From an uncultured Hyphomicrobiales bacterium (lineage in GTDB: Bacteria; Pseudomonadota; Alphaproteobacteria; Rhizobiales; Ancalomicrobiaceae), in assembly GCA_903930435.1 (NCBI GenBank), contig CAIYYN010000065.1, positions 62,001-126,000 of the forward strand: a stretch of DNA of 64,000 nt, given 5' to 3'. A model generated the notes under the pieces. The model did no database searches and was not told the DNA's origin. It worked only from the letters and a program-made list of their open reading frames with translations. Below are positions 38,690-63,764 of the stretch, in pieces. How positions within the stretch are numbered: the first letter of the stretch is position 1; every line of letters starts with the position of its first letter. A program made the position numbers and the translations under genes.

Positions 38690-39421
38690 TTAGTGGAACA
38701 TCTGGACGGTGGTCGATGTCGAGGCCGTGCCCGGTGTCAGGAACCGCTGGAACTGCACACGCGCCTGATCCTGATTGGCCGTGGTCCGTGCTGCCTCGAT
38801 TGCCTGCGCACGCGATTGGGCGGCAACGACGGCTGTCAGATCGGCCAATTGTTGGGTCTGCAGGGCAACAAGCTGATTGCCAGCCTGGGTCGCCTGCAGG
38901 CCTCCCACCGCCGATTGGCTCGAGGTCACAAGCGAGGAGATCGAACTCCTCGTCGCATCGAGGTTCTGAACGACACCAGCCTGAATCTTGAGGGAATCCT
39001 CAAAGCTCGAAACTGAATTCTGCCAGCGGCTTCGGGCGGCCTGAACGAGGGCCTGATCGGACGACGACAGGCTAGCGCCCGAGTAGAGCTGGCCATATTG
39101 GCTCTCGACCGAGTTGACTGAGAAGGTGATGCCCTGAGCCTGAGTGATCAGACTTTGGGTGCGGGTCAGCGACTGATTGATCGACTGCAAGCTTGAGTCC
39201 GGCAGGCTTTGCAAGTTGCGCGCCTCGTTCATCAGCATCTGGGCTTCGTTCTGCAGCGAGGCCACCTGGTTCTGGATCTGCTCGAGCGCGCGGGCGGCTT
39301 CCAGCAGGTTCTGGCTATAGTTCCAGGGGTCGAAGACGATGCCTGCGACGGTCGGAGCGATCGGCAGTGCGATAAGCAGGCTACCGGCCAGAAGGGCGCG
39401 ACGGAGCGAACGGGCGATCAT
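38690..39421 (-). CDS. trbJ: P-type conjugative transfer protein TrbJ (VirB5-like)
   Basis: A 243-residue exported pilus-associated protein. I start it at the ATG overlapping the trbE stop (ATGA at 39418-39421); the longer frame adds residues that belong to another reading of trbE. The signal peptide MIARSLRRALLAGSLLIALPIA precedes a likely cut after APTVAG. The rest is helical and Gln/Ala/Ser-rich with heptad character (ARALEQIQNQVASLQNEAQMLMNEARN), as in VirB5/TrbJ. It is expected at the pilus tip or in assembly. Confidence 0.93.
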   Translation of the reverse strand: MIARSLRRALLAGSLLIALPIAPTVAGIVFDPWNYSQNLLEAARALEQIQNQVASLQNEAQMLMNEARNLQSLPDSSLQSINQSLTRTQSLITQAQGITFSVNSVESQYGQLYSGASLSSSDQALVQAARSRWQNSVSSFEDSLKIQAGVVQNLDATRSSISSLVTSSQSAVGGLQATQAGNQLVALQTQQLADLTAVVAAQSRAQAIEAARTTANQDQARVQFQRFLTPGTASTSTTVQMFH

Positions 39422-41937
39422 GATGAGACCTCCTGCGAGAGTGAATTGAGGGATGGATCGATGACTTGCTCGATGGCCTTCTCCGCCAACGCCATGCGCG
39501 GCAATAGGTCGGCGGCCCATCGGAGCCCGCGATGCCGGAGCCAACGGGTGGCGAAGCTGTCGGGCGCGGACGAACCTGTGCTGCCGGCCTCAGCTCGGAT
39601 ATCAGCGACAAGGACGGCGATGGCGGTCTGGTCGGTCTTCGATGACGCGGCACAGAAGGCGAGTGCTACATCGCCGAGCCCGAGTTCGAACAGGCGGTTG
39701 CCGCGACGGGACTGGCAGTAATAGTCACGCTTCGGTGTCGCTCGAGCGATGATCTCGATCTGGCGATCGTTCAGCCCGAACCGGCGATAGGTCGCCAGGA
39801 TCTGCGGTTCAATCGCCCGCTCATTCGGGAGAAAAATCCGTGTCGGGCAGCTTTCGATGATGGCGGAAGCGATCGGGCTCGTCTCGATATCGGCAAGTGA
39901 CTGGGTGGCGAAGACGACGGAGGCATTCTTCTTGCGCAGCGTCTTCAGCCATTCGCGCAACTGCCCGGCGAAGCCGCCGTCATCAAGCGCAAGCCAACCT
40001 TCGTCGATCATCAGCAGCGTTGGCCGGCCGTCGAGCCGGGCTTCGATGCGATGAAAGAGATAGTCGAGCACGGCCGGCGCGGCTCCGGTGCCGATCAGCC
40101 CCTCAGTCTCAAAAGCCTGGACCTCAGCATCGCCAAGCCGCTCGATCTCGGCATCGAGCAGCCGGCCATGCGAGCCGCCGAGGCAATAGGGACGCAGCGC
40201 CTGCTTCAAGGCGGTCGACTGGAGAAGGACGGCGAGGCCTGTGAGCGTCCGCTCGGCAACAGGTGCCGTGCCGAGGGAATTCAGCGCCGTCCAGATATGC
40301 TCCTTGGCAGTCGGGTCGATGGTGACGCCCTCGCGTGCCAGAATGCTTGCCACCCAATCCGCCGCCCATCCCCGCTCGGCTGGCTCATGGATACTCGCCA
40401 GCGGCTGCAAGGCTATAGGTTCTGCGGCGTCATCTAAGAGCGCGCCGCCGAGATCATGCCAGTCGCCTCCCATGGCGAGGCTGGCGGCGCGGATCGATCC
40501 GCCGAAGTCGAATGCGAAGATCTGCGAGTTCTCGTAGCGGCGAAACTGCAGGGCGAGGAGGGCGAGGAGAACCGACTTGCCGGCACCGGTCGGGCCGACG
40601 ATCAACGTGTGTCCGACGTCGCCGACATGAATCGAGAACCGGAATGGGGTCGCCCCTTCCGTCTTTGCAAAGAATAGCGGTGGCGCGGCAAAATGCTCGT
40701 CGCGTTCTGGCCCAGCCCAGACCGCCGACAGCGGCATCATGTGCGCAAGATTGAGCGTCGAGATCGGGGGCTGACGGACATTGGCATAGGTGTGCCCGGG
40801 CAAGGATCCGAGCCAGGCTTCAACCGCGTTGACGGTCTCAATCATGCAGGTGAAGTCGCGGGATTGGATCAGCTTCTCGACGAGACGCAGCTTCTCGTCG
40901 GCTCGTGCGGGATCTTCGTCCGATACCGTGATCGTCGCCGTCACATAGGCCTGACCGATGGCATCCGACCCGAGTTCCTGCAGCGCTGCGTCGGCGTCGG
41001 CCGCCTTGTTGGCGGCGTCAGTATCGAGGAGTGTCGAGGCCTCGTTGGTCATCACCTCCTTCAGGATGGCGGCGACCGACTTCCGCTTGGCGAACCATTG
41101 CCGGCGGATGCGGGTGAGGAGGCGCACCGCGTCGGACTTGTCGAGGAGGATGGCGCGGGTCGACCAGCGATAGGGAAACGCCAGACGGTTCAGCTCGTCG
41201 AGGATCCCTGGGAAAGTCACTGTGGGGAACCCCGTGATGGTCAGGGTGCGCAGGTGATGCCGACCCAGACGGGGCTCAAGCCCGCCGGTAAAACTCTCGT
41301 CGACAAGGATGGCATCGAGATAGACGGGGATTTCGGGCACGCGGACCCGATGTCGCTTGGTCGAGATGCAGGAATGCAGGTAGGTCAGCGTCTCTGCGTC
41401 ATTGAGCCAATCGACTTCCGGAACAAATCCCTCGATCAGTTGCAGGATCCGGTCGGAGCGATCGACAAAACTGTCGAGCCAGTCGCGGGCGTCGATGCCG
41501 GCACCAGACCGCCCCTCGTAGAGCCAGTTCTCGGTGCGCGAGGCGTCCTCGGCTGGTGGCAGCCATAGGAGCGTCAGGAAATACGTACTTTCAAAATGAG
41601 CGCCTTCCTCGACGAATTGCGCCTTGCGTTCGGCCTCGACCAACGCCGAGACGGGATCCGGGAACCGGTTGTCGGGATAGTGGTTTGCGGGATTGCGCTG
41701 TGCCTCGACAAAGATCGCCCAGCCCGAGCCGAGGCGCCGAAGCGCATTGTTGAGCCGGGCCGTCGTGCCGATCAGCTCTGAAGGTGTTGCCGAATCGAGA
41801 TCCGGTCCCCGGAACCGGGCCGTCCGCTGGAATGAGCCATCCTTGTTGAGAACAACACCGCGTGCGACTAAAGCCGCCCACGGCAAGTAGTCGGCAAGGC
41901 CTTGCGACTGGCGGCGATATTCGGCGAGACTGAACAT
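39418..41937 (-). CDS. trbE: Conjugal transfer ATPase TrbE (VirB4-like)
   Basis: The main channel ATPase, 839 residues. The N-terminal CagE/TrbE/VirB4 domain starts MFSLAEYRRQSQGLADYLPW. The C-terminal ATPase domain has Walker A VGPTGAGKSVLLALLALQF, the FAFDFGGSIRAASLAMGG block, Walker B TLLMIDEGWLAL and the following KKNASVVFATQSLADI. All are intact. The stretch after residue 800 (STGSSAPDSFATRWLRHRG) is the usual variable tail. It lies 12 bases after trbD and overlaps trbJ. Confidence 0.95.
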   Translation of the reverse strand: MFSLAEYRRQSQGLADYLPWAALVARGVVLNKDGSFQRTARFRGPDLDSATPSELIGTTARLNNALRRLGSGWAIFVEAQRNPANHYPDNRFPDPVSALVEAERKAQFVEEGAHFESTYFLTLLWLPPAEDASRTENWLYEGRSGAGIDARDWLDSFVDRSDRILQLIEGFVPEVDWLNDAETLTYLHSCISTKRHRVRVPEIPVYLDAILVDESFTGGLEPRLGRHHLRTLTITGFPTVTFPGILDELNRLAFPYRWSTRAILLDKSDAVRLLTRIRRQWFAKRKSVAAILKEVMTNEASTLLDTDAANKAADADAALQELGSDAIGQAYVTATITVSDEDPARADEKLRLVEKLIQSRDFTCMIETVNAVEAWLGSLPGHTYANVRQPPISTLNLAHMMPLSAVWAGPERDEHFAAPPLFFAKTEGATPFRFSIHVGDVGHTLIVGPTGAGKSVLLALLALQFRRYENSQIFAFDFGGSIRAASLAMGGDWHDLGGALLDDAAEPIALQPLASIHEPAERGWAADWVASILAREGVTIDPTAKEHIWTALNSLGTAPVAERTLTGLAVLLQSTALKQALRPYCLGGSHGRLLDAEIERLGDAEVQAFETEGLIGTGAAPAVLDYLFHRIEARLDGRPTLLMIDEGWLALDDGGFAGQLREWLKTLRKKNASVVFATQSLADIETSPIASAIIESCPTRIFLPNERAIEPQILATYRRFGLNDRQIEIIARATPKRDYYCQSRRGNRLFELGLGDVALAFCAASSKTDQTAIAVLVADIRAEAGSTGSSAPDSFATRWLRHRGLRWAADLLPRMALAEKAIEQVIDPSLNSLSQEVSS

Positions 41938-41949
41938 GGGTTCTGCTCC

Positions 41950-42228
41950 TCAAGCCTGCAAATGCGCGGGATAGCGCAGGTGGCGTCGGACGACGTCGAC
42001 GAATTGCCCATCGCGCTTGGCGGCCCAGACCGCCGCCATGTGACCGATCAGCCAGATGATCAGTCCTGGGATCCAGAGCCGGAGGCCGAGCCCGATTGCT
42101 GCGGCGAGCGTGCCGTTGGCGATCGCCACCGTTCTCGGCGCGCCGCCAAGCAGGATGATCTCGGTCAGTGACCGGTGGACGGGTGCGAAGAATCCGGTAA
42201 GCGCGTCGCGGCTGTTGGTCTCGCTCAT
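41950..42228 (-). CDS. trbD: Conjugal transfer protein TrbD (VirB3-like)
   Basis: A 92-residue inner-membrane protein. I start it at the ATG at 42226-42228, overlapping the trbC stop (ATGA). The conserved start GFFAPVHRSLTEIILLGGAPRTVAI leads into two membrane helices (TLAAAIGLGLRLWIPGLIIWLIGHMAAVW) and a short basic tail. In VirB systems this protein works with the VirB4 ATPase, encoded next here as trbE. Confidence 0.93.
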   Translation of the reverse strand: MSETNSRDALTGFFAPVHRSLTEIILLGGAPRTVAIANGTLAAAIGLGLRLWIPGLIIWLIGHMAAVWAAKRDGQFVDVVRRHLRYPAHLQA

Positions 42229-42557
42229 CCGACCACCGCTCCGCCGCCGAACGAGAAGAAGGTGAGGAAGAACGAGGAGGCGGCGAAGGCGATCGACAGG
42301 CCGAAGACGATCTGGATCAGCCGGCGAAACCCGCCCGACGTGTCGCCGAACGCGAGCGTCAGTCCCGTGACGACAATGACGATCACCGCCATGATTTTTG
42401 CGACGGGACCTTCGACGGAATCGAGGATCTTTTGCAGCGGCGCCTCCCATGGCATCGACGATCCCGCTGCAAAGGCCGGGGTCGTGATCAAGATGACGGA
42501 GGCGGACAGGGTGAGAGCGGACACGGCGGACCGAAGCCGCGTGAAATGATGGATCAT
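42225..42557 (-). CDS. trbC: Conjugal transfer pilin TrbC (VirB2-like)
   Basis: Major pilin precursor, 110 residues. A long signal peptide ends at TTPAFA (about residue 29). The mature part has two hydrophobic helices (AKIMAVIVIVVTGLTLAFG and IQIVFGLSIAFAASSFFLTFFSFGGGAVVG) separated by a polar turn (DTSGGFRR), the standard VirB2/TrbC plan. In RP4 the pilin is cyclised by the TraF peptidase; a TraF-like peptidase is encoded at 49892-50410, so cyclisation is possible. It overlaps trbB and trbD by ATGA. Confidence 0.94.
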   Translation of the reverse strand: MIHHFTRLRSAVSALTLSASVILITTPAFAAGSSMPWEAPLQKILDSVEGPVAKIMAVIVIVVTGLTLAFGDTSGGFRRLIQIVFGLSIAFAASSFFLTFFSFGGGAVVG

Positions 42558-43591
42558 GTGTGATCTCCAGAGGTTTGAAGCGCGAGATTGGTTTGACGGT
42601 CGGGGAACCCGCGCGTGCCATCCACGGAGAACGCGGGAACAAGCCGGTAGTCACCGTTGGTCCCAAGTCCTTCGACGAAGGCGAGTTCAGACAATCGCCG
42701 CGCGGATCCCCGGCCGGAAAGGACCGCGATGACGTCGACGGTCTCGGCAATGAGAGCTCGCGGGACCGTGACGACGACTTCCTGGATCAACTGTTCAAGC
42801 CGTCGCAACGCGCCGATCGCGGTGCCGGCGTGAATGGTACCGACGCCACCGGGATGGCCGGTACCCCAGGCTTTCAGGAGGTCAAGTGCTTCCAAGCCAC
42901 GGACTTCGCCGACACAGATCCGGTCGGGCCGGAGCCGCAGTGACGAGCGAACCAGATCGGCGATCGTGGCGACGCGATCCTTGGTCCGGAGAGCCACCAG
43001 GTTGGGGGCCTTGCATTGCAGTTCGCGGGTATCCTCGATCAGGATGACGCGGTCCGATCCACCTGCGACTTCCGCCAACAGCGCATTGACCAGCGTCGTC
43101 TTGCCGGTGGAGGTGCCGCCGGCGACCAGAATGTTCTGTCGGGTTGCGACCGCCTTGCGCAGAGCCTCGGCTTCTTCCGCTCGCAAAATGCCTGACTCGA
43201 CATAGTCGGCGAGCGTGAAGACGGCGACCGCTGGCTTGCGGATAGCAAACGCAGGTGAGGCAACGACCGGCGGCAACAGACCTTCGAACCGTTCACCCGT
43301 TTCAGGAAGTTCGGCCGAGACACGCGGCGACGCGGCATGCACTTCCGCCCCGACATGATGGGCAACCAGCCGAATGATCCGCTCGCCATCTGCTGCTGAT
43401 AGCCGAGCGCCCGTGTCGGCCTGGCCGTCGCGGAGCCGATCGACCCACAGCCAACCATCGGGATTGAGCATGACTTCGACGACGGTCACATCGTCGAGCA
43501 ACTGGGCGATCACGGGTCCAAGCGCGGTCCGCAGCATTCGCGCGCCCCGTGCCGTCCGTTCGATCGTTGTTGCTGCCTGATCGTTTGCCAC
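42554..43591 (-). CDS. trbB: Conjugal transfer ATPase TrbB (VirB11-like)
   Basis: Hexameric secretion ATPase, 345 residues, first gene of the trb run. Motifs: Walker [22 protein letters not shown], Asp box [11 protein letters not shown], Walker B and His box ([34 protein letters not shown]). All are present. The promoter of the trb operon should lie in the 139 bases between this gene and the copG-like gene, where GTAGCG is repeated at 43694-43699 and 43702-43707. Its stop overlaps trbC by ATGA. Confidence 0.95.
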
Positions 43592-43730
43592 TGGCCACCC
43601 CGGATGAGCTGGGCGATCGCGAGCAACGCGATCCTCACCGGGGATGAGTAGAAAAGGCAGTGAATATGTCTTTGCAACAAGGCATTATCAGTCGTAGCGT
43701 TGTAGCGTGCGACGACAGGGAGACGGCAGT

Positions 43731-44135
43731 CTAGCCATCGCTGTGCAGTTCATCTCGCAATGACTTGCCCTTGGCCATCCTCCGGCCGAGCGCCTCGATG
43801 AACCCATCGTATCGCTCCTTGCCTTTCGCTTGCGCGGCTGCCTGAGCCTCGGCCGGAAGCGGCGGTGTGACCGTCAGCCAGAACCGCACAAACAGGGCGA
43901 GCGTCTCGTTGGAGACCTCGATGTCGCGCTCGAGCCGCTCCAGTTGGCGCGACAGGCGATCGAGGCGCCGTGAGATCGCCGCCTCACGGGTCTCAGCGTC
44001 GTCAGGCGACAGGAACGAGGCGATGGCTGCCTCAGCGACCAGGGATTTGGGCTTTGTTCTGGATTTGGCGAGCGTCTCCAGCGACTTCATGACATCGACG
44101 TCGAGATAGACTGACAGGCGGCGTTTGCGGCTCAT
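43731..44135 (-). CDS. CopG/ribbon-helix-helix family protein (TraD-like position)
   Basis: A 134-residue protein whose N-terminus RRLSVYLDVDVMKSLETLAKSRTKPKSLVAEAAIASFL fits a ribbon-helix-helix DNA-binding domain. A coiled-coil follows (REAAISRRLDRLSRQLERLERDIEVSNETLALFVRFWL). It starts two bases after the traG stop and lies just before the trb operon. Its place between the coupling protein and the channel genes is conserved in this ICE type. It may repress the trb promoter or act as an accessory to the coupling protein; neither is shown. Confidence 0.82.
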   Translation of the reverse strand: MSRKRRLSVYLDVDVMKSLETLAKSRTKPKSLVAEAAIASFLSPDDAETREAAISRRLDRLSRQLERLERDIEVSNETLALFVRFWLTVTPPLPAEAQAAAQAKGKERYDGFIEALGRRMAKGKSLRDELHSDG

Positions 44136-44137
44136 TG

Positions 44138-46120
44138 TCAGAGGTCCATGCCATCGTTGGGATCGAGCGATACCTGACGGGCAAGACCCGCGACCCGGTT
44201 CAGGGCCTTCGCCTGGACGGCATCTTCGTCAGGCTCATCGAGCAATGAGCTGAACTCGTCCGCGGCCGGCAGCGGACTTGGATCAATCGCCTCGTGTTCG
44301 GGCAACTCCGGCTCCCGACGAATGCCGCTGTTGGCCGGGTCGTCGGCTTCGGGCGCGGAGGTTGGTGAACCATCCAGAACGGCGCCGACAGCAGATGGCA
44401 GATCTCCGCTCCAGTCGGTTGGTCTCGTCAGCGTGCTCGGTTGCCCGAGTTCCGCCGGCTTCAGGATCCGTTCCTGCAGTCGGGGATCCTCGAAGTAGCG
44501 CGCCTTTTTCGCTCGGAGCGGCGGCGTTCCCGCAACCATGACGATCTCATCGCTCGGCGGCAATTGCATGATTTCACCAGGGGTCAGAAGTGGCCGCGCC
44601 GTCTCCTGCCGACTGACCATGAGATGCCCGAGCCAAGGGGCGAGCCGATGGCCAGCATAGTTGCGGCTGTCACGCAACTCAGTCGCCGTGCCCAAAGCAT
44701 CTGATACCCGTTTGGCGGTCCGCTCGTCATTGGTAGCGAAGGCGACGCGGACATGGCAATTGTCGAGAATGGCGTTGTTTGGCCCATAGGCCTTCTCGAT
44801 CTGGTTGAGCGACTGGGCAATCAGGAAGCTCTTGAGACCATAGCCGGCCATGAAGGCCAGCGCAGACTCGAAGAAGTCGAGACGGCCGAGCGCGGGAAAC
44901 TCATCGAGCATGAGCAGAAGCCGATGCCGGCGCGATTCAGGTGACAGTTCCTCGGTCAGGCGCCGACCGATCTGATTGAGGATCAGTCGGATCAACGGCT
45001 TGGTCCTGGCAATATCTGACGGCGGCACGACGAGATAGAGCGAGGCTGGTCGCTCGGCTTCGACGAGATCGGCGATCCGCCAATGGCAGTCTCGGGTGAC
45101 GGCAGCGACGATCGGATCGCGGTAGAGCCCGAGGAACGACATGGCGGTCGAAAGCACGCCCGATCGCTCATTGTCGGACTTGTTGAGGAGCTCGCGCGCG
45201 GCGGAAGCCACGACCGGGTGTGGCCGGTCGCCCAGATGGAGGCAGGACATCATGGTGGCGAGCGTCGCCTCGATCGGACGACGCGGATCGGACAGGAAGT
45301 TGGCAACGCCGGCCAAGGTCTTGTCCGCCTCGGCATAGAGCACGTGCAGGATCGCGCCGACCAGCAGCGAGTGGCTGGTCTTTTCCAAATGGTTGCGCTT
45401 CTCGAGTGCGCCTTCCGGGTCGACAAGGATATCGGCGATATTCTGGACGTCCCGCACCTCCCAGTCGCCGCGGCGGACTTCGAGGAGGGGATTGTAGGCG
45501 GCAGAGTTCGCATTGGTCGGATCGAACAACAGGGTCCGGCCGAAGCGCTGCCGCCATCCCGACGTCAGAGACCAGTTCTCGCCCTTGATGTCGTGGACGA
45601 GGACTGAACCAGCCCAGGTCAGCAACGTTGGCACAACCAAGCCGACGCCTTTGCCCGAACGCGTCGGGGCAAAACAGAGCACATGCTCTGGCCCATCGTG
45701 GCGGAGATAGTCGCCTGCGAGCCGACCGAGGACGACACCATCGTCGCGCAACAGGCCGGCTGCGCGGATCTCGTCCGGGGTCGCCCACCGTGCCGAGCCG
45801 TAGGTGGCGACCGATTTCGCCTCCCGTGCCCGCCAAACCGACATGCCGATCGCAATGGCGATGGAGGCAAATCCGCCGGATGAGGCGATGAAGGCGCCTT
45901 CGGCGAAGACCTCTGGTGCATAGGCGTCGAACCAGTACCACCAGAGAAAAAACGCCGGTGGCTGGTAGATCGACAGCCCCAAGGCTTGAGCGATGGGTTT
46001 GCCAAGTTCCGGCTGAAACCCGAGCCGCCAGGCGACCCACTCCGTTGCGCCCCAGGTGGTGGCAAGCACGACCAACGAGACGACGAGGATCTGACCCCAG
46101 AGGATTTTGGTGGCGGACAA
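44138..46120 (-). CDS. traG: Conjugal transfer coupling protein TraG (VirD4-like)
   Basis: Coupling ATPase that links the relaxase-DNA complex to the type IV channel. I prefer a TTG start at 46118-46120, preceded by GGAG eight bases upstream and giving the family's usual beginning SATKILWGQ; an ATG at 46222 in the same frame would add 34 residues of no similarity. Three N-terminal membrane helices are followed by Walker A CFAPTRSGKGVGLVVPTLL, HDIKGENW, and Walker B LLLMLDEFPALGRLDFFESALAFMAGYG. The C-terminal 100 residues are an acidic, variable tail (EADDPANSG, EPDEDAV). About 660 residues. Confidence 0.92.
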   Translation of the reverse strand: MSATKILWGQILVVSLVVLATTWGATEWVAWRLGFQPELGKPIAQALGLSIYQPPAFFLWWYWFDAYAPEVFAEGAFIASSGGFASIAIAIGMSVWRAREAKSVATYGSARWATPDEIRAAGLLRDDGVVLGRLAGDYLRHDGPEHVLCFAPTRSGKGVGLVVPTLLTWAGSVLVHDIKGENWSLTSGWRQRFGRTLLFDPTNANSAAYNPLLEVRRGDWEVRDVQNIADILVDPEGALEKRNHLEKTSHSLLVGAILHVLYAEADKTLAGVANFLSDPRRPIEATLATMMSCLHLGDRPHPVVASAARELLNKSDNERSGVLSTAMSFLGLYRDPIVAAVTRDCHWRIADLVEAERPASLYLVVPPSDIARTKPLIRLILNQIGRRLTEELSPESRRHRLLLMLDEFPALGRLDFFESALAFMAGYGLKSFLIAQSLNQIEKAYGPNNAILDNCHVRVAFATNDERTAKRVSDALGTATELRDSRNYAGHRLAPWLGHLMVSRQETARPLLTPGEIMQLPPSDEIVMVAGTPPLRAKKARYFEDPRLQERILKPAELGQPSTLTRPTDWSGDLPSAVGAVLDGSPTSAPEADDPANSGIRREPELPEHEAIDPSPLPAADEFSSLLDEPDEDAVQAKALNRVAGLARQVSLDPNDGMDL

Positions 46121-46336
46121 AGGACTTGCTCCGATGGCGTTTGGAGCCAAAGGTCCGATGTCTTCCGCCGCGTGCAAGAGCTGTCGGGAGGCGATCGCGC
46201 GTTCGGCGGCCTCTTCGCGCAATGACCGTGTAGTGATAGTGCGGCGAATATCGAGGGCCGTATCATTCGACCGAAATCAGGGCATCCCGCGGTACCAAAC
46301 TTGGCACCCGTCTGGCGACAGCATCATTTTGCGGTC

Positions 46337-46365
46337 TTGCCCGATGTCGCCAAAATCCATATGTT
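46337..46365 (+). promoter_or_regulatory. Predicted promoter of the toxin-antitoxin operon
   Basis: TTGCCC (46337-46342) and TATGTT (46360-46365) are separated by 17 bases, a good sigma-70-type arrangement, 27 bases upstream of the antitoxin ATG. The -10 element lies inside the left arm of the palindromic operator. Confidence 0.5.
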
Positions 46366-46380
46366 ACGGAACATATGGAT
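46355..46380. promoter_or_regulatory. Perfect palindromic operator of the toxin-antitoxin operon
   Basis: ATCCATATGTT (46355-46365) and AACATATGGAT (46370-46380) are perfect inverted 11-bp arms around ACGG. It overlaps the predicted -10 box and ends 12 bases before the antitoxin ATG, the usual place for autoregulation by an antitoxin or toxin-antitoxin complex. Confidence 0.75.
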
Positions 46381-46392
46381 TGGAGATCACCG

Positions 46393-46656
46393 ATGTCCAC
46401 TGTTGTCACGGCTACCGACGTGCAGAAAAATTTCGGCACCTACCATGATCTTGCGCTGGCCGAGCCCGTCAAGGTGACGAAATATGGCCGCGAGACGGTC
46501 TACATCGTCTCGGCCAAGACATTCCATGAGCTGAAGCAGTCGCAGCGGGAAGCTGTCGCCTCGGCTGACTTGAGCGACGCGGAACTGGCGCTGATCGAGG
46601 CGGCGGACATTCCCGAAGAGCACCGCTACAGCCTCGATCCGTCGGATAAAACATGA
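46393..46656 (+). CDS. Type II antitoxin, Phd/YefM-like
   Basis: An 87-residue protein. I start it at the ATG at 46393, with GGAG seven bases upstream, rather than an earlier ATG. The N-terminus VVTATDVQKNFGTYHDLALAEPVKVTKYGRETVYIVSAKTFHEL has the Phd/YefM DNA-binding fold pattern. The acidic C-terminal half (SDAELALIEAADIPEEHRYSLD) would wrap and neutralise the toxin. Its stop overlaps the toxin start (ATGA), and a palindromic operator precedes it. The pair lies between traG and the relaxase gene and would stabilise the element in its host. Confidence 0.8.
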   Translation: MSTVVTATDVQKNFGTYHDLALAEPVKVTKYGRETVYIVSAKTFHELKQSQREAVASADLSDAELALIEAADIPEEHRYSLDPSDKT

Positions 46657-47084
46657 GCCTGCCCAATCCGGCACCGGGTCTGGTCATCTGCTATTCGTAT
46701 CTTTGGCATGAGCAGCATCAGGCCGGAGCGGAAGAGGGACGCAAGGCCCGTCCCTGCGCCATCGTGGTCGCGACAACCGACGACGATGGCGACACCAAAG
46801 TCTACGTCGCGCCAATCACGCATTCCCGCCCCGACGATGAGCACGCCGTCGAGCTGCCATCGGGCGCCAAACGGCGACTTGGGCTCGACGACCAGCCCTC
46901 CTGGATCGTGACGCGCGAACTCAACAGGTTCATCTGGCCGGGGTACGACTTGCGCCCTATTGCCCGTGACAAGCCGGATGTCTTCGCCTGGGGCTTTCTA
47001 CCTGTCGAGACTTTCGCAGCAGTCAAACGGGGGATTGCGTTGCATCAACGTGCGAAGCACCTGAAGCTGACGTCGCGGGACTGA
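46653..47084 (+). CDS. Type II toxin, PemK/MazF-like growth inhibitor
   Basis: A 143-residue protein overlapping the antitoxin gene by ATGA. The N-terminal GLVICYSYLWHEQHQAGAEEGRKARPCAIVVAT and KVYVAPITHS fit the beginning of the CcdB/PemK barrel. LGLDDQPSWIVTRELNRFIWPGYDLRPI follows. In MazF-type toxins the R(x)PC...V motif forms part of the active site; RPCAIVV is present here. It probably cleaves mRNA, but similarity is distant and activity is inferred mainly from gene order with a Phd-like antitoxin. It is transcribed against the relaxase gene, with 42 bases between stop codons. Confidence 0.7.
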   Translation: MSLPNPAPGLVICYSYLWHEQHQAGAEEGRKARPCAIVVATTDDDGDTKVYVAPITHSRPDDEHAVELPSGAKRRLGLDDQPSWIVTRELNRFIWPGYDLRPIARDKPDVFAWGFLPVETFAAVKRGIALHQRAKHLKLTSRD

Positions 47085-47126
47085 ACCGATGGACTGTTTC
47101 GGCCAGTTTGGTCACCAGTTCCTTGG

Positions 47127-48863
47127 TCAGAGGCCGAGACCGCGTTTGCGTCCCATCGACCAATCGACGCCGCCGTCATGTCGCAAAGTGCCGGCCACGT
47201 GACGCCCGAGATGCTTTTCCAGTGCCGGGGTCCAGGGCACCAATTGAAACCCCATGCCGTCATCGATCATGGCGAAGCGCCCCGAGGCGAGCGTCAGACG
47301 CTGCCGATATGAGCCGGCGACGTAGACGCCTGATACCGAGGGCTTCTCGGAAAGTCCTGTTTGCCTCGATAAATCGGCAGCGGCTGCGCCCAACTCGCGC
47401 TGCCGCAAGGTGTCGATGAGATCCCGCTGTAGCACTAGACGCTGACCCTGGCGGCGCGCCAGTCCTTCCCCCACCAAATGACTGCCACGACGCTCCATCG
47501 CCGCCCGGACCTCAGCACCGAAGCCGGTGTCTTCGTGTCCAGAACTGTCTTGCGTGACCAATCGGCGATCAAGCCAGGTTGCACCTGTCGCGCCGATCTG
47601 TTGGTCGAGCGAGAGATCAGATCGCGTCGCGAGCGCTGCCCGCTGACGCCCCCCCGCATCCTCGAAGCGCCGGAGTTCGACAATCGAGCCGGGCGCGCTG
47701 TCGCCGCTGGCGCCGAGGTCAGCCAGCCGTATGTGATGGGTTCGCCCGTCGATACCATCGACGATTGCGAAGGCCGTGCCTGTGAGTTCGTCGTCGAGAC
47801 CACGGGCGACCAGACGGCCGATGATCGGTCCCGTGCCGGTCTCGCCGGTGAGATCGAACTGCTCGACGCCGCGCTCCAGCCCCTGATCGGTCAAACCGCG
47901 ATGCATGCGTTTGATGATGTCATCGCGGATGCCAAGGTCCCGCAAGGTGGTCTCGGCCTTGTCGGAGAGCTGCCAACGACCGGGTGCCGTCTCCGTTACG
48001 AGACCAAGCCGCTCAAGTTTCTGCAGCCGTCCGATCTTTTGCAGGCGATAGGGATCGGCGGCGCTCGCGCCATCCGGACGGATATCGATGACACCATCGT
48101 GCTGGGCAGCTTCGCGGGTCAGGGCCTGATCGAGCCTGGTCCAGCGATCGGCTTCCACCTCACGCGCGATCGCTTGCGCCACGTCCCGGTCGCTCCGGGG
48201 GCCGAGCTCCAGCGTCACCAGATTTTCCGCACGGGCACGAAACCCCTCGCGGATGTAGTCGCGCGAGATGACGAGATCGGAGCCATCGTCAGTGACGCCG
48301 CGGACGAGCACATGGATGTGGGGGTGTTCGGTATTCCAATGATCGACCGCAACCCAGTCAAGCCGTGTGCCGAGATCCCGTTCCGCAGACTGCATCAGGT
48401 CGCGGGTGAAGGCTTTGAGGTCGGCGAGATCGCCAGCGTCTTCCGGGGCGACGATGAACCGAAAGTGATGTCGGTCGTCCGTACAACGCTCAGCGAAGCC
48501 GGCACCATCGGCCTCCTTAACACGTGCATCGAAAAGCTGTCCGCGTTCGCCGTCCCGTGTGACGCCGTCCCGGCCGAGATAGGCGAGATGGGTTTTCAGC
48601 GAGCCACGTGTTCCGGATTGGCGGACGACCCTGGCTTTGACGGTGACACGTCGAGCGCGCGTAGTCAGTTGACGAGACGCGGACAAGCTCGCCGATCGTC
48701 CACGTCCAAAGGAGCTGTACGTTGAGGAACGGCCGCGAGAACCATGCCTGCCACCGGCCCGCTCGACGGCCGACATGACCTGGTTGACGAAGGGCTTCAG
48801 CTTCTGGCCGCCGCCAGATTTGGCCCGCCCTGGCCGGACGCGGAAATCATCATCGCGGTTCAT
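47127..48863 (-). CDS. Relaxase, DUF3363 family (VirD2/TraI-like)
   Basis: Nicks the transfer origin and stays attached to the transferred strand. I start it at the ATG at 48861-48863, preceded by AGGAGG seven bases upstream, giving 578 residues and the family's usual beginning RDDDFRVRPGR. The N-terminal 90 residues are basic and Ser/Gly/Arg-rich. The metal-binding motif lies in VDHWNTEHPHIHVLVRG. The candidate nucleophile Tyr is in ISRDYIREGFRARAENLVTLELG. The DUF3363 domain fills the C-terminal half. It is encoded in the same direction as traG and traF. The region upstream holds an inverted repeat proposed as oriT. Confidence 0.92.
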   Translation of the reverse strand: MNRDDDFRVRPGRAKSGGGQKLKPFVNQVMSAVERAGGRHGSRGRSSTYSSFGRGRSASLSASRQLTTRARRVTVKARVVRQSGTRGSLKTHLAYLGRDGVTRDGERGQLFDARVKEADGAGFAERCTDDRHHFRFIVAPEDAGDLADLKAFTRDLMQSAERDLGTRLDWVAVDHWNTEHPHIHVLVRGVTDDGSDLVISRDYIREGFRARAENLVTLELGPRSDRDVAQAIAREVEADRWTRLDQALTREAAQHDGVIDIRPDGASAADPYRLQKIGRLQKLERLGLVTETAPGRWQLSDKAETTLRDLGIRDDIIKRMHRGLTDQGLERGVEQFDLTGETGTGPIIGRLVARGLDDELTGTAFAIVDGIDGRTHHIRLADLGASGDSAPGSIVELRRFEDAGGRQRAALATRSDLSLDQQIGATGATWLDRRLVTQDSSGHEDTGFGAEVRAAMERRGSHLVGEGLARRQGQRLVLQRDLIDTLRQRELGAAAADLSRQTGLSEKPSVSGVYVAGSYRQRLTLASGRFAMIDDGMGFQLVPWTPALEKHLGRHVAGTLRHDGGVDWSMGRKRGLGL

Positions 48864-49049
48864 TGGCTGTCCTCCTGAGAGGTGCGAAATCCGGCGAAAA
48901 CTTTGGGTTTTGGGCCGCGGCAGAGGCTGCGGGTTGATGATCGACCTCACGTCGGTCATCTGATTTCATTGCCAAAATCCTCCCGACCGACCGTCCGCAC
49001 CTCGCGGCTTTTATCTTGCCGTCCTCCTCCTCGACCTTCTCCTCCGCAG

Positions 49050-49079
49050 TTCACACTCTGGAACGCGCTGGTGTGTGAA
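49050..49079. other. Candidate oriT-region inverted repeat
   Basis: TTCACAC (49050-49056) and GTGTGAA (49073-49079) form an inverted repeat in the 243-base gap upstream of the relaxase gene, the usual place for oriT. The nick site itself cannot be identified by eye. Confidence 0.35.
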
Positions 49080-49106
49080 GTAGACTTGGGAGCGTCGAGA
49101 TGAGGT

Positions 49107-49886
49107 TCAGCGCCCGGACAGAGGGACGAACAGCTGCCCGCCCGAAGGTTTTGCTGCCGGTGGATGTGCATCCGATGTATCCACAGGACCACCGGCTATT
49201 GGATGATAGGGGGCGGTTTCTGGACCAATCGGACTAGGCATTGGCGCCGGTGACCTCGAAGGAAAAATTCCGCTCGCCCAGCCAATGGGTCGATCATCGT
49301 GCGACAGATCTTCCGCCGTCGAACCCACCGTCGGGCGATCGTTCGACGGACGCTCAGGCGAGGTTCGTTGAACATCAACTTCGGCTCTGGGACCGTGCTC
49401 ATCCTGCGAGCCGTCTGAGGGTTTTGCGTCCTCCGGCATGTCGAAGTTCGGCACATCACCTTTCGCTAACGACAGCATCACCGCTTCCGCAAACCGGATG
49501 TCGGGCCGGATCTTTGTCCCCCGAAACCGGGCAATCGCGCATCCGATCGCATCGCTTTGAACCGCCGGATCGCTCGCACACTCCCTGGACAGTCTGGCGA
49601 TTTCAGAGGTCGCCGACGAGAGATTGGCACAGGGCTCCAGGATGTTTGCGTTGACGGCTCCAGCTCTCACAGTGACGCCTGAAAGACCGATGCGAAGCGC
49701 TTGGTCCGGCGGCGTACGACGTGCATCCGCGAGCGCTGCAATGCTCGATGAAAAGACACGCGGTAGTGGTTCATTGAGGTGTCCGATGGTCCAGGGCGAT
49801 CCCCGGCTATTGTGCCAGACCAGAGCCTGCACGAGCTTCGGATCAAGACTGAGGGAACAGGCCGTGACGAGGGTGGCGAGATCCAT
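49107..49886 (-). CDS. VirB1/SLT-like conjugation protein, catalytic Glu not seen
   Basis: A 259-residue protein in the place of the lytic transglycosylase gene of this element type. I choose the ATG at 49884-49886, with GGAG eight bases upstream; a GTG three codons earlier is possible. Residues 1-150 fit the fold of SLT-like proteins (LATLVTACSLSLDPKLVQALVWHNSRGSPW, later AIARFRGTKIRPD and RFAEAVMLSLAKGDVPNFDMP). The catalytic ES pair of true transglycosylases reads HNS here, so peptidoglycan cleavage is doubtful. The C-terminal 100 residues are Pro/Ser-rich and probably disordered. It starts six bases after the traF stop. Confidence 0.7.
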   Translation of the reverse strand: MDLATLVTACSLSLDPKLVQALVWHNSRGSPWTIGHLNEPLPRVFSSSIAALADARRTPPDQALRIGLSGVTVRAGAVNANILEPCANLSSATSEIARLSRECASDPAVQSDAIGCAIARFRGTKIRPDIRFAEAVMLSLAKGDVPNFDMPEDAKPSDGSQDEHGPRAEVDVQRTSPERPSNDRPTVGSTAEDLSHDDRPIGWASGIFPSRSPAPMPSPIGPETAPYHPIAGGPVDTSDAHPPAAKPSGGQLFVPLSGR

Positions 49887-49891
49887 GACCG

Positions 49892-50410
49892 TCACTCCCC
49901 CCGATCGTCGAAGGTCCAGATCGGAGCCGCCTTTGCGATCACGGCGGATGTGGACAGCAGGCCAAAATACCGTCCATCGAATGAGTTCAGGGACTGCCAG
50001 TTCATCAGGAAGATGGTACCCGGACCGACAGTCTGGCAGCCGCTCCAAACCGGCAGCGGCCGGCCTTTGCTGTCCGAGGTGAGCGTTTTCCCGATCGAGA
50101 CGTGATCAACGGTGATCTCTGTGTCCGATCGACAGACAACCTGACCCGGAAGCGCGGCGACGCGTTTCAGAAGCGGAATGCCGACCGGCAGGATCTCGCG
50201 TGTCGCCATGAAGTCGACGATGCTACTCGGCGCGCGAACGACGACCAGATCGCCGATGTCCAACGTGTCGACGGCGCTGGTGACGTAGAGGCCGACAGGC
50301 ACGCTGTCGGATGCATTCCAGATCAGCCAGGGCGTCGGCGAAATCGTGACTGTGGCCGCGATGGCACCGACCCCGCCGAGCATTGTCAGCACGATTGAGG
50401 AGGCGGTCAT
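49892..50410 (-). CDS. traF: S26 family signal peptidase TraF
   Basis: A 172-residue serine protease of the TraF branch of S26 signal peptidases; in RP4 it matures and cyclises the TrbC pilin. One N-terminal membrane helix is followed by NASDSVPVGLYV with the catalytic Ser. The catalytic Lys lies in GIPLLKRVAALPGQ. The final box reads FLMNWQSLNSFDGRYFG, where the family usually has a D-SRYFG form. It overlaps the DUF2840 gene by ATGA and is followed by the VirB1-like gene. Confidence 0.92.
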   Translation of the reverse strand: MTASSIVLTMLGGVGAIAATVTISPTPWLIWNASDSVPVGLYVTSAVDTLDIGDLVVVRAPSSIVDFMATREILPVGIPLLKRVAALPGQVVCRSDTEITVDHVSIGKTLTSDSKGRPLPVWSGCQTVGPGTIFLMNWQSLNSFDGRYFGLLSTSAVIAKAAPIWTFDDRGE

Positions 50411-52151: not shown

Positions 52152-53039
52152 TCACAGCTTATCCCCAGCGCTTGGACGCCCCGAGCTTGAGCCATCGGCG
52201 GCACGGATTGCCCTCACCTTGCTCGGTTTGAAGGTGAGAAGGACGCGCGCGTTGGCGTCGCCGATAAACCCGAGTTCGTAGCCGGGTAGAGACTGGTCCC
52301 GGACGATCGCGCGCAGTTCAAAGCCGAAGCGTCGGAACGGGGAGAGGCTGCCGGATTTGGCGTAGAGATGCTCGATGTCAAAGCTCCAGCCGCCGGGCTG
52401 ATGCCCGCCGTGGCGGCGGATCAGGCGGTAGAGCCATCGCTCCAGCCCACCGGTCAGGTCGAAATAGGCTTCGTCGATGGTCAGGACGAATGTGTTGTCC
52501 AGGACGCCGGCATAGAACCAGTCTGGCAGGATCAATTCGATCCCGAGCGGCCTCCCTCTGGCGTCGGCCCGCTCTTTCCATTCGTTGATCCAGGAGAAGC
52601 GGTGCATGCGCCGCTCGGAGACCTGACGGATCGACGTCGCGATCGTGGTCGATTGGAGCCGATCGAGGGCGGCCTTGAGGCGGAGATAGTCGCGAACCGA
52701 GGTACCCCGCCCGACGAAGGTCAGGATCTCATGTGGCGTCGCTGTCATCAGGCGCGATGTCGAGAGACCCTGATTGCGGGCGTCGACGATCTGGGAGGCG
52801 GCCCAGATCAGCACATCGGCGTCCCAGATCGTTGCCATGCCGTGGTCGAGTGTCGCCTCGACGCGGATGGTCACATCGCCCTGTCTAAAATCGATCGGTT
52901 CCACCCGCCGGGACTTGGCGAGCGAGAAGAATGGATAGGACATGAGATCACGCGCATCGCGCGGCGCCATGTCGCCCGGTCGGGCCCTGAAAAGATCCAG
53001 TTGCCTGTCTTGCGGCCGGGATGCGCTCTGCTGTGTCAT
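52152..53039 (-). CDS. repA: Replication initiator protein A (RPA family)
   Basis: A 295-residue replication initiator of the RepA/RPA family. The sequence DLMSYPFFSLAKSRRVEPIDFRQGDVTIRVEATLDHGMATIWDADVLIWAASQIVDA is diagnostic, followed by winged-helix segments (DYLRLKAALDRLQSTTIATSI) and RWLYRLIRRHGGHQPGGWSFDIEHLYAKSGS. The family initiates plasmid replication by binding iterons; three iteron-like repeats lie just beyond its stop codon. Presence beside parA and the transfer genes is characteristic of Tn4371-type ICEs, where it may allow limited replication after excision. Confidence 0.92.
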   Translation of the reverse strand: MTQQSASRPQDRQLDLFRARPGDMAPRDARDLMSYPFFSLAKSRRVEPIDFRQGDVTIRVEATLDHGMATIWDADVLIWAASQIVDARNQGLSTSRLMTATPHEILTFVGRGTSVRDYLRLKAALDRLQSTTIATSIRQVSERRMHRFSWINEWKERADARGRPLGIELILPDWFYAGVLDNTFVLTIDEAYFDLTGGLERWLYRLIRRHGGHQPGGWSFDIEHLYAKSGSLSPFRRFGFELRAIVRDQSLPGYELGFIGDANARVLLTFKPSKVRAIRAADGSSSGRPSAGDKL

Positions 53040-53048
53040 GATCGGCCG

Positions 53049-53174
53049 TCACCGCGCGCCACGGCGGGAACCGTGATCGGCCTGCCGCCCGTTGCCATAG
53101 GCTGGCGAAATCGCCGCGTGGCGCTTGGCCGGCAGAACGTCGCCATTGCCGGGATCCGATTTCGAGGCCTTCAT
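53049..53174 (-). CDS. Short ORF between the helix-turn-helix gene and repA, unknown
   Basis: A 41-codon frame from ATG at 53172-53174 to a TGA at 53049-53051 fills the space between the excisionase-like gene and repA. The product is basic (begins MKASKSDPGNGD and contains AISPAYGNGRQAD). I do not recognise a domain. Its exact fit into the gap and the run of three genes in one direction are the only support; it could equally be leader sequence of repA. Confidence 0.3.
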   Translation of the reverse strand: MKASKSDPGNGDVLPAKRHAAISPAYGNGRQADHGSRRGAR

Positions 53175-53186
53175 GCCGCGATCGGC

Positions 53187-53360
53187 TCAGGCTTGCAGAT
53201 CGGTCAGTGCATAGACCACACGGCCGCCGAGCTTCGAATAGCGCGGTCCTGTGCCATAGGTGCGGTGTTTTTCAAGCGTCCGGCCGGAAAGACCCAGAAA
53301 GCGGGCGGCCTCGGGGGTGCGCAGGAAGCGCGGCGGAAATCCTGCCATGGGATCGGCCAT
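53187..53360 (-). CDS. Small helix-turn-helix protein (AlpA/excisionase-like)
   Basis: A 57-residue protein. I start it at the ATG at 53358-53360, with GGAG seven bases upstream; the longer frame adds unrelated residues. The sequence PRFLRTPEAARFLGLSGRTLEKHRTYGTGPRYSKLGGRVVYALTDLQA is a MerR/AlpA-type DNA-binding domain (helix-turn-helix plus wing). Such proteins lie just upstream of repA in this element type. It may regulate repA or act as a recombination directionality factor. The usual C-terminal extension is absent. Confidence 0.8.
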   Translation of the reverse strand: MADPMAGFPPRFLRTPEAARFLGLSGRTLEKHRTYGTGPRYSKLGGRVVYALTDLQA

Positions 53361-53502
53361 CAGATATCTCCTCACCGTCAATGTCCCCGATCGGATTGAT
53401 CGGCGGATCGAGGGCAAGTGTGGCGGAGCGCGGCCGTCAGGGGGGATGGTGAAAACGGGGGTGCTGTTTTCGCCACCCCTTGGCCTGAATATCTTCCGCA
53501 AA

Positions 53503-54283
53503 TCACTGAAATCGCAGAAGATCCAGATAGCCGCCGTGCATTATCTGCACGCCCGTCCGAACAAGCCGGATCGTCGTATCGCGCAAGGAGGACGTCTTCC
53601 ACGGATGGTCTGCGATCCGGCCTAAGCCAAAGAGCGCAATCGCGATTTGGCGATAATCTGCACCATGTAGGTGGCCGTCGAGTGCCTGGAGTGATTGCAA
53701 AAGCCGGGTGTGCTTTTGCTCAGGGAGCGGCCTGAAATCGGGTCCGGCTGGACGACCCGAAAGAGTTCGCCAAAGACGTGTTGCGGCATGAGCGCGGACC
53801 TCAAACGCGTCGTCGAAAGGGAGCAGAGGTGCATAAGCGGCGTTTCGATCTGGCGCGTCCCGGAACCAGGCCCGATGCTCAACGCCGTCGTGGCGCATCA
53901 TCAGATGCCAGCGGTCGATCGCGCCGCGTACAACAAAATCAGGAAAATCGCAGAGTCGGATTTGCGGCTTTCGGGTGCCATCATCGTGGCTGACGGCAAG
54001 CGGTACAATGGTTCCAAGCACGTCTGGCGACCAGAAGACAGACTGCTGCCAGGCGCCGAGCCTCGGATCTGCAGCAAAACGCCAGGCCCCAGCGGGGATC
54101 TACCGCGACCTCCGGCGCGGCGGAGGCGGACGTCTTGAGGGATTTTCGCGCTCTGCGCCGAATGCGATCAAAGAACTGGCAGTAGCCCGGGTTGCGTCGC
54201 AAGAATTCCCAGGCAAGGCCGATGCGATCGAGCGATCTCAGCGGTTCGTAACTGTCTGATGATTGCCAGTCCGGATCCGCCAT
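53503..54283 (-). pseudogene. DUF6499-DUF2285 regulator gene, frameshifted
   Basis: Two frames together make one typical element protein. The N-terminal part (start 54281-54283) carries LRSLDRIGLAWEFLRRNPGY, the DUF6499-like segment, and RWGLAF. The C-terminal part carries DVLGTIVPLAVSHDD, RLLQSLQALDGHLHGADYRQIAIALFG and LRDTTIRLVRTGVQIMHGGYLDLL, the DUF2285 segment. The switch is at an A4 run at 54076-54079 (TTTT in the coding strand). With three bases instead of four, the reading RWGLAFAADPRLGAWQQSVF continues into the second frame. So this is a one-base insertion in a homopolymer, either a real mutation or a base-call error. Full-length relatives are probable DNA-binding regulators next to repA. 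Confidence 0.8.
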
Positions 54284-62117: not shown

Positions 62118-63029
62118 TCAGGCCGCCCGGACCTGCTCCATTGGCTGTTGCGCATGCATCCAGTCGGCAGCCTGCTGCGCCTTGCTCGCCGCTGTAAAGA
62201 TCGCTCGGGAGTCGGATTTGATGACCTTCAACCACGATGAAATATACGACGCGTGATCGGGGCGCGGATGATTCGCGATGCCGAGGTCGGCGAGCACCAG
62301 CCCGCTCAGGATCTCAACGCAGATCTCCTCGAACGCATAGGCCTCAGAACCGAAACGACCCGACAGATCCCGATCAAGCCGGTGCTTTGCCCCCGATGCA
62401 TGCCCACATTCGTGCAGCCAGACGCCATAGAATGACGCAGCATCGCGAAAGCGCTCGAACGCCGGCATGACCACAGTGTCGGTCGACGGGCGATAGAAGG
62501 CCGCGGTCCCTTCGCTTATCGTCTTGATCCCTAGATTTTTGATGAAGACCTCGGCATGATCGAGACGCTCTGCCTCATCGAGAATCGGAACAGCATCGGG
62601 CGCATAGCCGTCGACCTGAGCCAAATTGAAAACCGAAAACGCTTTCGCAAACATTCGGCGCAGGTCGGTTTCGTCATCCTCATGACCGGCATCATCACGG
62701 TCGCCCGCAGCGCGCATTTCCTTCCAGAGAACGACGGTCGTCGCCTTCTCGCCCTTGCGGACCTGGGCACCCAGCGCACTCCACTGACGATACGTTCCCC
62801 AAAGTCCGCTGCCGTAACCCGCGCTCAATGCCGCTACCCATAGCGCCAGTGTATTGACGCCGCGATATCTTTTGCTGGTCGACACATTCGTCGGGCGGGC
62901 GGCGGCAGCCCCATCGTGATGCCAGGGCATCTTGAACTCGCCGACGCCGGCTTCAATTGCCGCCACGATCTCGGCGGTGACACGGGCATAAACATCCGTA
63001 CGGCTGGCGGAACCGGAATTCTTCTCCAT
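62118..63029 (-). CDS. ardC: ArdC-type antirestriction protein with zincin-like metallopeptidase
   Basis: About 303 residues from the ATG at 63027-63029, with GGAG eight bases upstream; an ATG five codons earlier is possible. The N-terminal ArdC domain binds single-stranded DNA (RTDVYARVTAEIVAAIEAGVGEFKMPWH, NVSTSKRYRGVNTLALW, GTYRQWSALGAQVRKGEKATTVV). The C-terminal zincin-like domain has the metal-binding site in WLHECGHASGAKHRL and the downstream Glu in YAFEEICVEI. Such proteins protect incoming element DNA from restriction in the recipient. It lies at the right end of the element, where early-entry genes are common. Confidence 0.92.
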   Translation of the reverse strand: MEKNSGSASRTDVYARVTAEIVAAIEAGVGEFKMPWHHDGAAAARPTNVSTSKRYRGVNTLALWVAALSAGYGSGLWGTYRQWSALGAQVRKGEKATTVVLWKEMRAAGDRDDAGHEDDETDLRRMFAKAFSVFNLAQVDGYAPDAVPILDEAERLDHAEVFIKNLGIKTISEGTAAFYRPSTDTVVMPAFERFRDAASFYGVWLHECGHASGAKHRLDRDLSGRFGSEAYAFEEICVEILSGLVLADLGIANHPRPDHASYISSWLKVIKSDSRAIFTAASKAQQAADWMHAQQPMEQVRAA

Positions 63030-63238
63030 CACGGAAACTCCCATGACGAGCGTTCGCGAGCCTCTCTCTCGAACCCGATCTCGTCACGGGCCTTCCCGCC
63101 CAACTCTGCCTCTCAAACCCGCGCGCACACTATGGTGCAGCAAGCCATGAGACGGCCGCTCCTGTTTCGGAAAACCCGACGCCAAAGGCCATGCCGCCGG
63201 TCCACTGACCGCCGAATCCACGCCACAACAAGAAATTT

Positions 63239-63259
63239 TTTGGTGAGTATTTGGTGAGT
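63239..63259 (+). repeat. Direct repeat pair left of the tRNA-Arg fragment (possible integrase arm sites)
   Basis: TTTGGTGAGT occurs at 63239-63248 and 63250-63259, an 11-bp period. The core GGTGA(G/T)T is shared with the pair at 63591-63609. Pairs of about one helical turn are typical of arm-type sites of tyrosine recombinases. Confidence 0.5.
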
Positions 63260-63307
63260 CACGGCCGCAGTGGATCGAAGAATTTTGGTCTAACTTATTG
63301 AAATAAT

Positions 63308-63360
63308 TGGCGCACCCGACAGGATTCGAACCTGTGACCTTTGCCTTCGGAGGGCAACGC
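63308..63360 (-). pseudogene. 3' fragment of tRNA-Arg(CCG), likely attachment core
   Basis: Reading the minus strand, GCGTTGCC, loop CTCCGAA (anticodon CCG), GGCAA, variable region, T-arm ACAGGTTCGAATCCTGT and the 3' acceptor CGGGTGC G CCA are all intact. The D-arm and 5' acceptor half are replaced by unrelated sequence from 63361 on. This is a tRNA 3' end of the size used as an integration site, not a functional tRNA gene. Confidence 0.85.
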
Positions 63361-63590
63361 ATCGTATTGGCGCCATCACTCAATCCGTAACAACCCAGGC
63401 CTGACGGCTCTCGATTGTTGTCGGAGACCAACACTGCGAACCTGCGATGGCCCAATGTCTCCAGGTGTCAATGGACCCAATCAGCGGCGAAGCAGCATAA
63501 AGGCGGGCACTTCCCTTCCGGCTACGAACGGACAAGCGTGGCATAAAGAGCACAGCGATAGACAAACCGCTCCGTGCCATCGGCCAATCT

Positions 63591-63609
63591 GGTGATTATC
63601 AGGTGATTA
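63591..63609 (+). repeat. Direct repeat pair right of the tRNA-Arg fragment (possible integrase arm sites)
   Basis: GGTGATTA occurs at 63591-63598 and 63602-63609, again an 11-bp period and the same orientation as the left pair. No gene was recognised between the tRNA fragment and the tRNA-Val gene (63361-63689). Confidence 0.5.
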
Positions 63610-63689
63610 CTAGGCAGCGGCCGAAGTCAAGAAACCACTCTCGCGCAGGACCTATTTTCTAAATTCTTTATTTATTTCAAATATTTAGA

Positions 63690-63764
63690 TGGTGGGCGCT
63701 GAGGGGATCGAACCCCCGACCCGCTGCGTGTAAAGCAGCCGCTCTACCTCTGAGCTAAACGCCC
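63690..63764 (-). tRNA. tRNA-Val(TAC)
   Basis: On the minus strand, acceptor GGGCGTT/AGCGCCC, D-arm AGCTCAGAGGTAGAGC, anticodon loop TTTACAC (anticodon TAC), T-arm GGGGGTTCGATCCCC, discriminator A and an encoded CCA. All arms pair correctly; 75 bases including CCA. Confidence 0.95.

Follow-up and report, generated by a model that had tools for sequence, protein, structure and literature searches.

A tRNA-Arg(CCG) fragment beside a tRNA-Val attachment site is probably the relict half of an older site within a composite ICE

Near the right end of the window, by which we mean the whole stretch of 64,000 nucleotides analysed here (contig C65:62001-126000 of an assembly of 4.63 Mb in 73 contigs), the 3′ part of a tRNA-Arg(CCG) gene is located between two pairs of short direct repeats. 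Does this arrangement represent one attachment site or two? A first-pass annotation made from the sequence alone had described it as an attP-like site and proposed a tandem junction of two elements or an assembled circular form. The tRNA-Arg(CCG) fragment at 63308-63360 (minus strand) in fact lacks a 5′ half, both repeat pairs (63239-63259 and 63591-63609) are present where that annotation had placed them, and the region is, as it had recognized, integrase attachment DNA with arm-type repeats. The assignment of both pairs to the same attP did not hold, because the right pair belongs to the integrase of an element in tRNA-Val.

The attachment site of that element, missed in the first-pass annotation, is the intact tRNA-Val(TAC) gene at 63690-63764 (minus strand; called by ARAGORN, Rfam score 67 bits). 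The 3′ part of this gene forms a 46-bp direct repeat with 100% identity, whose copies at 63689-63734 (attR copy, minus strand) and at C65:25211-25256 are ~100.5 kb apart. The distant copy is adjoined by the repeat GTGATTACTCGGTGATTACC and, inside this other end of the element, by the gene for int_V, a 454-aa tyrosine integrase with an Arm-DNA-bind_3 domain. Judging from its repeats, integrase, and transfer genes, the ~100.5 kb element (C65:25211-125734, of which positions 1-63689 of the window are a part) is predicted to be an ICE integrated in tRNA-Val(TAC). Relaxase, coupling protein, and type IV secretion genes are all present. Pfam searches identified TrbE, TraG, a relaxase with a DUF3363 domain, and an S26 (TraF-like) peptidase at 39418-50410, replication and regulation genes (RPA, HTH_17 below the Pfam cut-off, RovC_DNA-bd) at 52152-54021, and, as the last ICE gene before the attachment sites, an ArdC-like gene with ArdcN and MPTase-PolyVal domains at 62118-63044, all on the minus strand. 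The ICE is bordered on the left by two Band_7 genes and a CDP-diacylglycerol pyrophosphatase gene and on the right by tRNA-Leu, a lipoyl ligase gene, and a gene which by eye resembles prolyl-tRNA synthetase (Pfam: tRNA-synt_2b and HGTP_anticodon). Its cargo includes what appears by eye to be an ATP synthase operon (C65:27488-34176, corresponding to L028:5488-12176), followed by a cation-ATPase-like gene and further genes of energy metabolism, likewise named by eye.

The right repeat pair consists of two copies of GGTGATTA (63591-63609, plus strand), and the same repeat is found at the other ICE end just before the integrase gene, at C65:25375-25394. It is separated by 144 bp from the anticodon loop of tRNA-Val and by 239 bp from the loop of the Arg fragment. 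As the P′ distances measured in this material are 117-146 bp, we excluded the right pair from an Arg attP. A single attP comprising both pairs was rejected both for this misfit in spacing and for the recurrence of the right pair beside int_V. From motif and position, the pair at 63591-63609 was assigned as the P arm of the tRNA-Val ICE at its right end.

What, then, is the inner site? The left pair (63239-63259, plus strand) comprises two copies of TTTGGTGAGT, forms the exact repeat TTTGGTGAGTATTTGGTGAGT with an 11-bp period, and is the sole 10-mer repeated at a distance of 11 across the 64 kb window. Its distance to the end of the Arg anticodon loop is 111 bp, and by motif and spacing it was assigned as the P arm for an integrase of the tRNA-Arg(CCG) type. 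The tRNA 3′ end itself is adjoined by a P-side block of the type TAAN4-6TTGAA (63289-63307, plus strand). Among 40 distinct flanks on the 3′ side of Arg(CCG), this block was present in 17, and 7 had, 50-80 bases out, an 8-mer repeated exactly with 11-bp spacing. The fragment at 63308-63360 was recognized from its sequence and from a truncated Rfam match of 33.5 bits, and ARAGORN called no gene there. Further copies of this 53-base core, for which the first-pass annotation had suggested a search, do not exist in the genome at a tolerance of ≤3 mismatches, and the fragment is single copy. Its identity with the native 5′ half of the same genome ends at 63358, and its final two bases are matched only by GC-type tRNAs of relatives.

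Between the Arg core and the Val arm lies a unique stretch, Y (63361-63590), in which neither P′ arms nor an integrase gene was found. When 63361-63686 was searched against the same 397 genomes that were used for the arm-motif scan described below, only the genome itself and one 31-base match in one other genome were obtained. Homology of Y to other P′ regions was considered, but the alignment was weak: with the P′ region of G073, shuffled sequences scored as well in 13-37 of 1000 cases when the alignment started at the loop, and in 97-336 of 1000 when the stem was left out. Y is thus not securely homologous to an Arg-type P′ region. Because it has neither P′ arms nor an integrase, the Arg site is a relict half-site, ~330 bp inside the ICE.

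It is highly unlikely that this position holds the complete attP of a single element, whether in a tandem junction or in a circular form. Such an order does occur elsewhere, which made a tandem junction a reasonable proposal: in genomes G104, G377, and G197, a P arm (in G197 read by eye), an Arg 3′ half ending at the loop, a P′ arm, and an integrase gene follow one another. In the window, however, the arms at 63591 are of the Val type and belong to tRNA-Val, so that no complete attP is found at the Arg core, and chromosomal DNA takes the place of an integrase gene on the right. The tandem junction proposed earlier lacks its second element: within the window, the Arg core is followed by neither P′ arms nor an integrase gene, and beyond tRNA-Val, where a search for an integrase had been suggested, the genes are chromosomal. 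The circular form was excluded because the window as assembled passes from ICE genes straight into the chromosome. Neither form is therefore supported at the window site. The tandem loci (L110:8217-9856; L114, minus strand, from 12959; L112, minus strand, from 4263) are junctions at tRNA-Arg(CCG) in which the P arm stems from one element, and the P′ arm and the integrase from another whose arm motif is different.

The assignment of arms to integrases could be followed through the comparison set. A scan of the 397 genomes with the pattern TGGTGAGTNNNNGGTGAGT gave 12 places in 10 genomes, including the window's own, and the reversed-pattern control gave one. Seven of the 11 other places were on the P side of tRNA-Pro (three intact genes, four with the 3′ half only), three preceded an integrase gene (the tRNA pieces, by eye, were those of Val, Arg(CCG), and Pro), and one had no attachment context. 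In G104, an Arg(CCG) 3′ half has the same GGTGAGTATTTGGTGAGT at 109 bp from its loop. In G073, in whose family three genomes were searched, a GGTGAGT pair lies 5′ of an integrase gene whose displaced tRNA piece is Arg(CCG), and the integrase domains were confirmed. The spacing on the other GGTGAGT P sides and on those of G002 and G026 was 107-110 bp, compared to 111 bp in the window. As the tRNA targets that accompany the GGTGAGT pair (L116-L122, L124-L126) number at least three (Pro, Arg, and Val, determined by eye), the arm motif seems to track the integrase type and not the tRNA. In a tree of 28 integrases, from which the short rows L078 and L082 were left out, the GGTGAGT and GGTGCTT types were separated from int_V by a 100/100 branch. 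Among the 25 integrase loci inspected of 27 found, an exact 9-mer repeat at 11 bp was present within 600 bases 5′ of the gene in 13, and a recognizable tRNA T-loop piece in five.

We consider it likely, with a probability of roughly 0.68, that the locus holds two attachment sites of two tyrosine integrases side by side and that the inner Arg site is the older, a P-side half that now lies inside the ICE. This reading is supported by the 46-bp repeat at both ends with an integrase and matching arms, and by the left arms, which recur in G104 next to Arg(CCG) and in G073 ahead of the gene for an Arg(CCG) integrase. Observed directly were the anatomy, the match of each arm pair to its own core, and the lack of P′ arms and of an integrase at the Arg site. 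The likeliest history that we infer for them is a site switch: an ancestor of the ICE would have been integrated at tRNA-Arg(CCG), its P′-integrase module of the Arg type would have been swapped for a tRNA-Val module, and the old P arm and Arg core would have been retained as passengers. Switching of the integration site has been described for ICEs of the same backbone (PMC8627217). The switch is a matter of inference because no remnant of an Arg-type integrase was found in the ICE and its surroundings (C65:22001-158000), where int_V was the sole strong match, and because Y resembles the G073 P′ region only weakly. A nested Arg/Val pair of this kind was found in no other of the 397 genomes. 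In G104, ArdC-like and ParB-like genes are on the integrase side of the junction, whereas in the window they are on the P side, and the ancestral Arg-type layout is for this reason not seen directly. An ArdC homologue in G395 has by eye no attachment site on its right.

Alternatively, the half-site might stem from a separate island which was accreted beside the ICE and captured by an imprecise deletion. P-side half-sites beside foreign DNA are common, as the tRNA 5′ half is missing as well at four of the seven tRNA-Pro places that share the arm motif. In the window, however, 195 bp separate the end of the ArdC gene from the arm to its right, and this interval holds no gene of a separate island, which makes such a capture very unlikely.

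The intact tRNA-Arg(CCG) gene for which the first-pass annotation had suggested a search was found at C49:4852-4928; it combines the native 5′ half with a different 3′ half. About 250 bp further, at C49:5178-5220, is the native 5′ half itself, cut just after the anticodon stem-loop. The genes to the left of these tRNA sequences are Fic, LysR-like (called by eye and by its match to a C65 gene), TrbI, and TrbG; by eye, a gene order of TrbI-like and LysR-like is also seen next to the Arg P arm of G377. Between the two tRNA sequences is an arm pair, GCTTACGCG, at 129 bp from the loop, a spacing ~20 bp longer than at the other Arg sites. We conclude that the native tRNA-Arg(CCG) gene was interrupted on C49 by another ICE-like element, on which a replacement tRNA-Arg(CCG) gene is located. 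The host tRNA was cut and not rebuilt and the same isoacceptor is present on the element, as in integration with an element-borne tRNA. The element is incomplete, its other end being absent from the assembly, in which no integrase gene adjoins an Arg(CCG) fragment. We followed all 46 tRNA matches in the assembly, namely 43 complete genes called by ARAGORN, two tRNAs at contig ends, which by eye read CAT, and the fragment in the window. As only the C49 gene has the anticodon CCG, it appears that the one tRNA of this type in the assembly that reads CGG is carried by the element.

The split on C49 raises the question whether the Arg fragment in the window might be the missing native 3′ half, an integrase exchange having divided the chromosomal gene between C65 and C49 in an ICE of two parts. 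Apart from the fragment itself, the core is present only in the orphan native 5′ half at C49:5178-5220, and an ICE with trb genes ends on the C49 side. The two halves overlap by exactly 16 bp and each is single copy, which would fit one exchange between ICE and chromosome. However, the tRNA-Val ICE has both of its ends on C65, so that its structure does not necessitate an exchange, the C49 arms GCTTACGCG are unlike those of the window, and the GGCAA of the shared 16 bp is also found in the Arg-type P′ region of G073. We therefore regard a native origin of the fragment as unlikely. Because the ICE ends are both on C65 and the arms differ, we regard as quite unlikely the joint claim that half-site and C49 split are two products of one integrase exchange and that a two-part conjugative element destroyed an essential host tRNA gene and kept the cell alive with its own tRNA-Arg(CCG). 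Misassembly fusing the Arg fragment to its right neighbor is extremely unlikely: the assembly has 73 contigs, the body of the C49 element is missing, and TrbE occurs only once, in the tRNA-Val ICE, but the fragment is single copy and thus offers no repeat that could mislead the assembler.

The preferred reading, two neighboring sites of which the inner one is a relict, can be compared with known systems. With ICEs of the ICEMlSymR7A type of Mesorhizobium (PMC8627217, PMC11963761), the window ICE shares the trb genes, relaxase, and coupling protein, an integrase at a tRNA 3′ end, and arm-type repeats in attP; it differs in targeting tRNA-Val, in its arm motif, and in holding a second, unused Arg half-site. 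Composite islands formed by tandem accretion, such as CGI48 (PMC8978831), likewise combine two attachment specificities within one island, but the inner site of the window is a half-site without an integrase of its own, and for this reason the inner element cannot be delimited. The tripartite ICE of Mesorhizobium (PMC5882170) likewise has several types of attachment site per element, whereas the Arg site has neither a second integrase nor a matched att pair in the assembly. With tRNA-dependent lysogeny (PMC10865867), C49 has in common the short core, the host tRNA that is not rebuilt, and the same isoacceptor on the element; in contrast, the C49 element is conjugative and not a phage, and its integrase end is outside the assembly.

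In PMC8627217, changes of the ICE integration site are suggested by backbone trees and not by a DNA trace. A relict P arm and core beside the present site would be the footprint of such a switch, and the window shows how motif and spacing allow arm repeats to be matched with their integrases. The most likely interpretation, that of a relict half-site carried by a composite ICE, is nothing unusual in kind but instructive in its anatomy; such a site is mostly a fossil, left when a mobile element moved to a new landing place. The C49 finding is more surprising and matters more: if the only CGG-reading tRNA is on a conjugative element, the host cannot lose that element.

Related sequences were also found on viral contigs, where a pattern search yielded three loci, two of which look like chance matches in coding sequence. 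The third (L128:884-902) is an Arg(CCG) 3′ half with the same GGGCAACGCATC end as in the window; it adjoins what appears by eye to be the C-terminus of an integrase and is likely a phage attP. In a plasmid search, the matches listed (the best 15 of 125 records) were short and tRNA-sized only. A second small island in the assembly (L029, C54:346001-362000) carries an integrase gene with GGTGGCGACC arms beside a 3′ piece that resembles tRNA-Arg(ACG); the intact gene for this tRNA is located ~6 kb away.
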